From the NCBI GenBank assembly GCA_029243485.1, contig JAQWRY010000001.1, positions 62,001-126,000 of the forward strand: DNA of 64,000 bases, read 5' to 3'. Position numbers and translations under genes: made by a program. Below, piece after piece: positions 5,296 to 8,743 of the stretch (positions are counted from its first letter, which is position 1; the number at the start of each line of letters is the position of its first letter). The notes beneath the pieces were generated by a model. It worked only from the letters and a program-made list of their open reading frames with translations, did not search any database and was not told the origin of the DNA. This DNA is from Candidatus Binatia bacterium (GTDB taxonomy: Bacteria; Desulfobacterota; Binatia; UBA12015).

Positions 5296-6207
5296 TCAGA
5301 CCGAAGTCAGCCAATTGCCGTGGCCGTCGTCGCGACCGTGAACCACATCCGCGTAGCGGGCCTGGATCTTCCGCGTGAGCGCACCCGGCTTCCCGTCGCC
5401 GATCGCCCGATTGTCGAGTTCGCGGATCGGTGCAATCTCAGCCGCCGTCCCCGTGAAGAACGCTTCGTCGGCGACATAAATGTCATCGCGCGTCAGGCGC
5501 TCTTCGCTCGCCTTGACGCCCAGCTCCTCGAGGAGCGTCAGGACGGTCGACCGCGTAATCCCCGGCAGGATCGAATGGGTGGCGGGTGTCTTCACGACGC
5601 CTTCACGGATGACGAAGATGTTCTCGCCGCCGCCCTCGGCCACGAAGCCTTCGGTGTCCAGAAGCAGCGCCTCTTCGTATCCGGCGTTGCGAGCCTCGTG
5701 CGACGCCAGGATCGAGTTCACGTAGTTGCCGACGGACTTCGCCTTCGACATCAACGTATTGCTGTGGAAGCGACTGAAGGAGGCCGTCTTCACGGTGATC
5801 CCGCGCTCCGCTCCCTCCTCGCCGAGGTACGCGCCCCAGGGCCATACCGCGACCGACACGCGAACCGGATTCGGCGCAGCTAGTCCCATCTCCCCGTCGC
5901 CAAGGAAGACCAGCGGCCGCAGATAACACTCCGGGAATCCGTTGCGACGCACGGCCTCGACGCAGGCGTTGGCGACGTCCGCGGGTTCGAACGGGATCTT
6001 CATGCCGAGGATGCGCGCCGAATCAAACAAGCGGCGGTTGTGCGCATCCAGCCGAAAAATGGCGGACCCGCCCCCCTCAGTCTCGTAACAACGGATGCCC
6101 TCGAAGACGCCGAGGCCGTAATGCAGGGTGTGCGTGAGGACGTGCACCTTCGCCTCGTCCCAAGGCACGAAGCTGCCGTCCATCCAAATCCAGGAACCCT
6201 TCTCCAC
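5296..6207 (-). CDS. ilvE: Branched-chain amino acid aminotransferase
   Basis: Class IV PLP-dependent aminotransferase of 303 residues that moves the amino group between glutamate and the keto acids of valine, leucine and isoleucine in the cytoplasm. The PLP lysine is K157 in the SKAKSVGNY segment. LHYGLGVFEGIRCYET near residue 30 and EGGGENIFVIREGVVKTP near residue 190 are standard fold-type IV marks, and TGTAAEI near the C-terminus is the cofactor phosphate-binding segment. Translation starts at a GTG with a GGAGGA ribosome-binding site. The length is normal for the family. No ilv or leu genes are adjacent; it sits in a mixed housekeeping run. Confidence 0.93.
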   Translation of the reverse strand: MEKGSWIWMDGSFVPWDEAKVHVLTHTLHYGLGVFEGIRCYETEGGGSAIFRLDAHNRRLFDSARILGMKIPFEPADVANACVEAVRRNGFPECYLRPLVFLGDGEMGLAAPNPVRVSVAVWPWGAYLGEEGAERGITVKTASFSRFHSNTLMSKAKSVGNYVNSILASHEARNAGYEEALLLDTEGFVAEGGGENIFVIREGVVKTPATHSILPGITRSTVLTLLEELGVKASEERLTRDDIYVADEAFFTGTAAEIAPIRELDNRAIGDGKPGALTRKIQARYADVVHGRDDGHGNWLTSV

Positions 6208-6249: not shown

Positions 6250-7578
6250 TCAGGCCGCTCGCTGAACGTCGCTGTTCGCTTCGCGCTCGAAAGCCGCGAG
6301 ATCCTCGAGGGCTCGGGCGGCCATCGCCAGCTTCTTGTCGCGCCCCTTCATGCGGCGCCCGCCGAGCTCCGGGAAGAGACCGTAGTTCGCGTTCATGGGC
6401 TGGAACTCTTTGCGGCCTTCCTCGCTGACGTACCGAACGAGCGAACCGAGCGTCGTCGTGGCGGGCGGCACCATCGGCGCCGCACCGACGGCGAGTCGCG
6501 CGGCGTTCAGCCCCGCAAGGTAACCGGCGCTCGCCGACTCGAGATAGCCTTCGACTCCGACGAGCTGCCCCGCCAGCAGCAAGTCCGGGCGCGACCGCGC
6601 CTGCAACGTCGGGAGCAACAGCCGCGGCGAGTCGATGAACGTGTTTCGGTGCAGGCTTCCCAGCCTGACGAACTCCGCCTGCTCGAGTCCAGGGATCTTC
6701 CGGAAGATCCGTCGCTGCTCTCCGTAGGTCATCTTCGTCTGAAAGCCCACCATGTTGAATAGGCTCGCGCGGTGGTCGTCTTGTCGGAGCTGCACGACCG
6801 CGTGAGAACGGCGACCCGTCCGCGGATCGGTGAGACCGACTGGCTTCAAGGGTCCGAAGGCCAGCGTCTGCACGCCGCGGCGAGCCATCTCCTCGATGGG
6901 GAGACAACCTTCGAAGTGAACGCAACGCTCGAAGTCGCGGGTTTCCACCTTCTCGGCCGCGAGGACGTCGGCCACCAGGGTCTCGTACTGCTCTTTGTCC
7001 AGGGGGCAGTTGATGTAGTCATCCGACCCTTTGCCGTAGCGCGAGGCACGGAACGACTTCTCCATGTCGATCGAGTCCGCCGCAACGATGGGCGCGATAG
7101 CATCGTAGAAGTAGAGGTAGTCCTGACCGAAGGCGACGCGCAGCTTTTCCGCGAGCGCGCTCGAGGTCAGCGGACCCGACGCGATGATGGTCAGACCGCT
7201 CGGGACATCGACCACCTCTTCCCGACAGATCCGGACGCCGGGCAACGACTCGATCGCGGCGCTCATGTCCGCGGCAAAGCCGTCGCGGTCGACGGCGAGC
7301 GATCCCCCGGCTGGTACCCGGTTACGCTCGGCCACGTCCATGACCAGAGAGCCGAGTCGACGCATCTCCTCCTTCAGAAGCCCGACTGCAGTCGTCTGCT
7401 CGGCGCTCCGAAAGCTGTTCGAACAGACGAGCTCCGCGAGCCGATCGCTCGTGTGCGCCTCGGTGCCCCGCACCGGCCGCATCTCGAAGAGATCGACCTC
7501 GATGCCACGGCGGGCGAGCTGCCACGCGGCTTCACAACCAGCGAGGCCCCCTCCAACGATCTGGACGCGTTCCGTCAT
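6250..7578 (-). CDS. trmFO: Methylenetetrahydrofolate-tRNA-(uracil54-C5)-methyltransferase
   Basis: TrmFO makes ribothymidine at position 54 of tRNA using methylene-tetrahydrofolate as carbon donor and FADH2 as reductant. The 442 residues start with the dinucleotide-binding motif [19 protein letters not shown] and contain the family signatures [21 protein letters not shown] and [17 protein letters not shown]. The length matches the family. In many bacteria trmFO lies next to topA and dprA; here the same order survives, but topA is only a scrap (see the pseudogene entry). The ATG at 7578 follows the decayed segment directly. Confidence 0.95.
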
Positions 7579-7599
7579 GCCCGGACCTTAGCCAGCCGG

Positions 7600-7852
7600 A
7601 CAGCGCGGGGAAACTCGGCCCGGATCCGGGCCGCCAATGCACGGCCGCCAGGCAACCGGCTCCGGCGGATCCACCGGCGGGACCTCCTTGCAGGTAGGAT
7701 ACCCCGTGCAGCCCACGAACTTTCCAAACTTCCCCCAGCGCAAAGTGCATGGGCTTCTCACACCGCGCCGTTGCGTCCCCACTTCAGGATCATGAGGGAC
7801 GATCATCGCTCGCAGGTGAACTCGGTGCGGAGATCCTGCGGCGTCCCATCGC
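7600..7852 (-). pseudogene. topA: Decayed topA (DNA topoisomerase I) C-terminal zinc-finger remnant
   Basis: Reading leftward just after dprA, three frames spell out broken pieces of the C-terminal zinc-ribbon repeats of topoisomerase I. First comes TEFTCER, then a TGA where the next metal cysteine would be, then SSLMILKWGRNGA. In a second frame follows CEKPM, and in a third LRWGKFGKFVGCTGYPTC. WGRNG and GKFGKFVGCTGYP are hallmark TopA finger sequences. At least one stop and two frame changes interrupt it, and the toprim and cleavage domains (about 600 residues) are missing. Ends are approximate. The dprA-topA-trmFO order supports the identification. A full topA presumably exists elsewhere, or the assembly has lost sequence here. 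Confidence 0.7.
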
Positions 7853-8743
7853 TCATGCCCTGGGCCCACTTGCCTGCGCGAACCGGCCACCGGGTCCGCG
7901 GACGATGCGACCCCGGACCTCGAGATCCAGTAGGTCCGCCCAGATCTCCTCGACGCTTCGGTGCGCTCGTACGACCATCTCGTCCACGGTCAGCGCTCCT
8001 TCGCCGATCGCGGCCAGAAGAGCCGCGGCTCCAGCCGCTTCCTCTTCCGGCTCCGCACAAGATTCGAAGGCATCGAGCCTCAGCTCCTCCAGGATGTCGT
8101 GGACGTCCTCGACCAGCCGCGCCCCGTCCTTTAGGAGGGAGTGCGGACCCTTTGAGCGGGGCGCCCCCGCCGGCCCGGGCACGGCGAAGACCTCGCGTCC
8201 CTGCTCCGCAGCCTGCCGCGCGGTGATGAGGGAGCCGCTTCGTTCGGTCGCCTCGACCACGACGACGCCTAGCGAGAGGCCGCTGATCAACCGGTTCCGC
8301 CGCGGGAAGTGGTACGCACGCGGCTCCATCCCCGGCGGCCATTCGCTCACGATCAGGCCCCGCTCGAGAATCTCCTCTCGGATGCGGCGGTTCCTCCGTG
8401 GATACACGACGTCGGTCCCACCCCCGACGACGGCCACGGTCACGCCCCCCGCCTCGAGCGCTCCCGCGTGCGCGGCCCCGTCGATGCCCAGGGCGAGGCC
8501 ACTCACGACCGCGACACCCGCTGCTGCCAGATCCCGACCGAGGCTCCGTGCCGTCGCCAGGCCCTGCGCAGTCGCATCGCGCGCACCGACGATCGCGACC
8601 GCGAGCCCACCGAGCCCAGCGCCCCATGCCCCGCACCCTTCGACGAAGAGGACGTCCGGCGGGTCGAAGATGTGGCGCAGGGGCCCGGGGTACTGCTCGT
8701 CTTCGATCGATACGGCGACGCCACGCGCTCGGTCCTGTGCCAT
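7853..8743 (-). CDS. dprA: DNA-processing protein DprA, short form
   Basis: DprA/Smf protects incoming single-stranded DNA and loads RecA in natural transformation. The Rossmann-like core is complete: YPGPLRHIFDPPDVL, VAIVGARDATAQG, SGLALGIDGAAHAGAL, YPRRNRRIREEIL, FPRRNRLISGL and SGSLITARQA. The C-terminal winged-helix (DML1-like) region follows around VDEMVVRAHRSVEEI. At 296 residues from the ATG at 8743 (GGAGGTG just upstream), it lacks the N-terminal SAM/helix-hairpin-helix region found in many DprA proteins; the in-frame sequence further upstream to 9025 does not look like that domain. Its stop overlaps the start of the decayed topA segment as ATGA. Confidence 0.9.
   Translation of the reverse strand: MAQDRARGVAVSIEDEQYPGPLRHIFDPPDVLFVEGCGAWGAGLGGLAVAIVGARDATAQGLATARSLGRDLAAAGVAVVSGLALGIDGAAHAGALEAGGVTVAVVGGGTDVVYPRRNRRIREEILERGLIVSEWPPGMEPRAYHFPRRNRLISGLSLGVVVVEATERSGSLITARQAAEQGREVFAVPGPAGAPRSKGPHSLLKDGARLVEDVHDILEELRLDAFESCAEPEEEAAGAAALLAAIGEGALTVDEMVVRAHRSVEEIWADLLDLEVRGRIVRGPGGRFAQASGPRA

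Follow-up and report, generated by a model that had tools for sequence, protein, structure and literature searches.

A zinc-finger topA relic between dprA and trmFO and an intact actinobacterial-type topA in a Candidatus Binatia genome

The initial annotation of the 64,000-nucleotide stretch analysed here (the window) had noticed broken pieces of topA between dprA and trmFO, and had supposed that either a second copy exists or sequence was lost in assembly. Topoisomerase I is described as essential in PMC7398561, and the locus raises the question of what became of the gene and which protein now does its work in the genome that holds the window (G000). The account that we favour, at a probability of roughly 0.9, is a xenologous displacement: on the branch that G000 shares with its closest relative, G010, topA was replaced by a topA of actinobacterial type, and the native gene decayed in place.

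The relic in the dprA-trmFO gap

The gap from dprA to trmFO spans 274 bases in the window. Both neighbours lie on the minus strand: dprA at 7853..8743 (TIGR00732, 242.8 bits, above the cut-off), with its inferred start at the ATG at 8743 and a mechanical open reading frame that extends to 9025, and an intact trmFO at 6250..7578 (TIGR00137 and NF003739, above their cut-offs). We read the gap on the minus strand of the assembly sequence against G011, a genome of the same genus in which an intact topA with an open frame of 793 codons lies between dprA and trmFO; this gene order had been called the usual one, and G011 bears it out. The first piece of the relic, A (7767..7856, minus strand), matches residues 592-621 of the G011 TopA, the first C4 zinc finger, in an alignment free of indels, and reads MSDGTPQDLRTEFTCER*SSLMILKWGRNG, where the stop is an in-frame TGA at 7805-7803 that stands at the position of the second cysteine of the finger in relatives. 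It matches the TopA of a relative at 60% over 30 aa by tblastn (E 3e-7) and at 71% over 131 nt by blastn (E 2e-18), the latter match extending into the end of dprA; the dprA stop codon (7853-7855) and the beginning of the relic overlap. The second piece, B (7654..7752, minus strand), corresponds to residues 664-696 and the second zinc finger, includes RWGKFGKFVGCTGYPTCKEV, and lies in a different frame from A (its best 22 aa match at 73% by tblastn, E 3e-9). Only 14 bases separate the two pieces, against 42 codons in relatives, and between them, in the third frame, a short remnant of the beginning of the second finger is visible by eye, without a score. Finally, 7563..7622 on the minus strand retains the old topA-trmFO spacer and runs into the start of trmFO (blastn to G011 79% over 61 nt, E 9e-10), while ahead of it nothing is left of topA beyond about residue 696. 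The segments for the Toprim, cleavage and last-finger parts are absent from the gap.

Searching the 274-nt gap by tblastn with the G011 TopA gave 59.7 bits for piece B and 40.0 bits for the other match; in 1000 dinucleotide shuffles of the gap the maximum was 26.9 bits, and neither score was reached once (0/1000). Moreover, at E <= 0.001 the relic is the only zinc-ribbon match (PF01396) in the whole of G000 (E 1.7e-6, 31.2 bits, slightly below the curated cut-off of 32). The gap thus resembles an intact orthologue at the same locus (E 3e-9 and 3e-7 against G011), and in the assembly sequence its frame is destroyed by a TGA, a frame change and missing domains. Judged by this similarity, the relic is genuine, a remnant of topA, as had been proposed, and the zinc-finger sequence with its TGA and the loss of the toprim and cleavage domains were likewise read correctly. 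The claim of three frames was fair in its wording, in that two frames are scored and the third is the trace seen by eye.

An intact TopA of another type

A search of the whole genome with PF01131 returned two intact genes only, a TopA on contig C28 and a topB on contig C21. The C28 protein has 929 aa, scores 735 bits with TIGR01051 (above the cut-off), and comprises Toprim (PF01751), Topoisom_bac (PF01131) and four stretches of Toprim_C_rpt (PF13368). It holds 0 CxxC motifs and no C4 zinc fingers, and it ends in a lysine-rich C-terminal tail. This is the architecture of the actinobacterial type: the enzymes of Streptomyces and Mycobacterium are described as free of zinc fingers and provided with lysine repeats in PMC7398561, and the Toprim_C_rpt repeats are as in PMC9369019. 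The relic pieces, on the other hand, are the first two fingers of an E. coli-like topoisomerase I with Topo_C_ZnRpt (PF01396), as described in PMC9369019, although in G000 this copy is broken. No zinc-finger topA was found elsewhere in G000, whether with PF01131 or with PF01396 at E 0.001 over the whole genome. On these gene predictions G000 is not devoid of topoisomerase I, and the essential relaxation presumably falls to the lysine-tail TopA. The second copy that had been expected therefore exists, but as a different gene of actinobacterial type. The case differs from the actinobacterial one in that the closest relatives of the host have a zinc-finger TopA. The same type is carried by G010, whose TopA is 90% identical to that of G000, as is its trmFO (90%).

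Among the best 80 of 589 confirmed loci, the best named matches to the new TopA are Actinomycetota MAGs, at 70%. We built two quick trees of 50 rows each, using 36 or 34 of the 80 loci. In the first, the TopAs of G000 and G010 fall in a clade that is otherwise Actinomycetota (10 rows, SH-aLRT 100); in the second, their clade consists of Actinomycetota plus G022 (11 rows, SH-aLRT 100), a genome from another family of the same class whose TopA is 72% identical and belongs to the same small group. Two Myxococcota rows (L094, L095) are sister to the actinobacterial clade that holds G000 and G010. This foreign grouping in the quick TopA trees runs against the host phylogeny given by the trmFO tree. 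Lysine repeats have been reported also for the TopA of Caulobacter and Bordetella, in PMC7398561, so that it is the tree and not the tail that speaks for the origin. We infer the direction and route of the transfer from these trees; the inner branches of the G022/G000/G010 group have support of 89-91 with one fork open, and with G022 in the group a direct actinobacterial transfer and a passage within the class fit equally well. Actinobacterial-like TopAs were also seen, at 52-58% identity, in loci labelled Myxococcaceae, Archangiaceae and Polyangia (L094, L095, L115), which suggests further transfers or mislabelled bins.

Lysine-tail TopA occurs elsewhere in the class. At E 1e-150 a full-length copy is present in 9 of 118 genomes, counting G000 and G010 (a tenth match, in G083, resembles the zinc-finger type more closely; the incomplete copy in G007 lies below the threshold), and in two of them, G028 (L227) and G071 (L228), of another family, the gene stands directly upstream of trmFO, in the ancestral position. 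Such a distribution would suit a history in which both types are ancient in the family and were lost differentially, with no transfer on the G000-G010 branch. However, the lysine-tail TopAs of f10, G086, G076 and G008 group by themselves (SH-aLRT 98; the G008 branch is long), apart from the Actinomycetota clade in which G000, G010 and G022 are placed, and no genome of the family holds both types intact (G003 being 81% and G007 63% complete). We consider this history quite improbable.

Both genomes are assembled in many contigs (88 for G000, which is 97.52% complete with 2.22% contamination; about 450 for G010, 92% complete with 4% contamination), and an artefact of assembly or binning might be suspected, in which assembly collapsed or dropped an intact zinc-finger topA at 7590-7860 and the topA on C28 is actinobacterial contamination. 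Nevertheless, four stretches of C28, one of them with topA, show a tetranucleotide correlation of 0.96-0.98 with the window, against 0.45-0.87 for five actinobacterial loci by the same measure, and in both G000 and G010 the new topA adjoins an aldehyde dehydrogenase gene (Aldedh) with 84% DNA identity. In these assembly data, composition and the neighbour common to G010 place the replacement gene in the host chromosome, and we rejected contamination as the source of the C28 gene on both grounds. Furthermore, the separate assembly of G010 has a different relic, with other deletions, at the same place together with the same replacement gene, and the G000 pieces show substitutions, a stop and several deletions rather than one junction. 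Loss of sequence in assembly, the alternative raised at the outset, is thus disfavoured, and we hold an artefact of this kind to be very improbable.

The surroundings of the new topA are less clear-cut for the displacement account. On the G010 contig (C269) only Aldedh and one 418-base piece of the G000 flank accompany topA, further flank pieces mapping to other G010 contigs, and this scarcity of conserved surroundings is a point against displacement. Some of the flank pieces match G009, G011 and G012, the strongest at 72-75%. For the Aldedh neighbour the best matches in G009, G001 and G012 reach only 43-47%, and in G011 there is none at E 1e-100; being so poorly matched in relatives, it may have arrived with topA or by itself. 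The new topA probably predates the split of G000 and G010, given that the two TopAs are 90% identical, like trmFO, and share the Aldedh neighbour.

The old locus in the family and the decay of the native gene

In a family sample of 14 genomes, G000 included, six (G011, G001, G012, G013, G005 and G006) have a zinc-finger topA as a neighbour of trmFO. A seventh, G009, of the same genus as G000, has a zinc-finger topA adjoining dprA at a contig end, with trmFO at the start of another contig; the two contigs presumably adjoin, and with G009 counted 7/14 genomes keep the gene at the old locus. The other seven comprise G000 and G010 with the lysine-tail gene, G007 and G008 with divergent lysine-tail genes (45% identical in G008, incomplete at a contig end in G007), and G002, G003 and G004 with a third form that has open frames of 943-949 codons, a long branch and weaker zinc ribbons. 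In the genus g3 (L035 of G004, L038 of G002) the Topoisom_bac match to this third form is split into positions 2-76 and 107-410, and in G002 (L038) the gene follows dprA directly.

Comparing the locus with that of close relatives, as had been advised, revealed the intact topA of G011 and, in the same gap of G010, a relic different from that of G000. What remains in G010 covers residues 50-73 and 588-666, split between two frames and interrupted by stops, and the first finger has lost its cysteines. In both G000 and G010, dprA now ends within former topA DNA, and in G010 (L031, about 5693-5747) the last dprA codons are an out-of-frame reading of the residue 50-73 remnant. Beyond this pair, an N-terminal remnant of topA follows dprA in G004, 46-54 residues long by four queries (E 1.8e-16 to 6e-18), and the TopA of G004 lies about 62 kb from the old locus; in G008 about 40 bases lie between dprA and trmFO. 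No topA relic was matched at E 0.01 in the gaps of G008 or G002, nor did an 8-kb stretch fetched from G022 match the old topA at E 0.01; the relic test was confined to genomes with a whole-gene trmFO match, which G003 and G007 lack. Going by the G004 relic and the clean G008 gap, the old topA was lost on other branches of the family as well.

The two relics also bear on the idea of a short gene that still functions, either as the 100-aa open reading frame at 7588-7890 or as a topA in which the TGA is recoded as selenocysteine at the former cysteine. The frame is indeed open, and the TGA falls exactly on a zinc-ligand cysteine of relatives, but we rejected this idea, which has next to no chance of being right, as the pieces do not share a frame, whole domains are missing, no continuous frame apart from recoded stops runs through them, and G010 retains other pieces that lack the first-finger cysteines. 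An RNA element in the relic region was rejected too, since no Rfam match anywhere in the window reached the gathering score, which also counts against a recoded TGA. Under the displacement account the G000 relic would have no function of its own.

The trmFO tree of 12 genomes gives ((G000,G010),G011),G009 with support of 95/92, 95/95 and 97/98. Deeper down the tree is uncertain, with a long G005 branch and an outgroup that does not fall on one side of a branch. The two relics are not nested: residues 50-73 and 622-663 survive only in G010, and 667-696 only in G000. Each relic thus keeps parts that the other has lost, and the ancestor of G000 and G010 must still have held more of the old topA. 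At the three codon positions G000 differs from G011 at 10, 10 and 24 of 59 codons, against 7, 3 and 18 of 59 between the intact genes of G009 and G011 over the same codons. The corresponding values for G010 against G011 are 16/52, 9/51 and 16/52, with 7, 3 and 15 of 54 between G009 and G011. Substitutions in G000 still favour third positions, which suggests that decay was recent or only partly relaxed; this pattern looks like a point against the displacement account, while G010 looks more relaxed.

Two TopA types and their distribution, an intact new gene, two different relics and the trees are what was observed, and displacement would join them as follows. The family ancestor would have had a zinc-finger topA between dprA and trmFO. 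The G000-G010 branch would then have acquired an actinobacterial-type topA elsewhere in the chromosome, and the acquired TopA would have supplied topoisomerase I activity, making the original dispensable. The latter would subsequently have decayed through separate deletions, frame changes and stops in G000 and G010. In this order acquisition would come first and decay second.

A probable displacement of an essential gene

In xenologous gene displacement a transferred homologue takes over from an essential housekeeping gene, which stays behind in place as a pseudogene. The present case is a clear instance of this known kind of event and no new system: a foreign-type homologue is intact elsewhere, the native copy has decayed in its syntenic place, and sister lineages keep theirs intact. 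It differs in that two sister species carry differently eroded relics, making an intermediate stage visible, and in that the two homologues differ in their C-terminal DNA-binding parts. We recognized no published account of a topA displacement of this kind in the open-licence literature, which is weak evidence of absence.

The same branch gained a topB. The G000 gene (C21; L002/L216) encodes 725 aa and scores 526 bits with TIGR01056, above the cut-off; within the 14-genome family sample topB is confined to G000 and G010 (C109; L215), and the only other carriers among 118 class genomes, at E 1e-100, are five members of a single genus, at 39-41% identity. Near both the G000 and the G010 copy there is one more block of similar DNA, whose distance from topB differs between the two genomes. 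Although the topB gain and the topA swap fall on the same branch, a single branch cannot show linkage. It is tempting, if rather unlikely, to suppose that G000 and G010 rebuilt their whole type IA topoisomerase set, with the non-nested relics catching a two-TopA intermediate; the recurrence of swaps across the class would then make the zinc-finger and lysine-tail solutions interchangeable parts.

Topoisomerase I sets global supercoiling. For an enzyme that is both essential and responsible for supercoiling, a swap to a version with another DNA-binding tail puts the replaceability of such enzymes to a strong test. Under the displacement account a single genus would present the donor-type gene, the intact native gene and two stages of decay, so that the order of events is open to study. 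When an essential gene appears to be lost from its usual place, a foreign replacement elsewhere in the genome should be the first thing to check.
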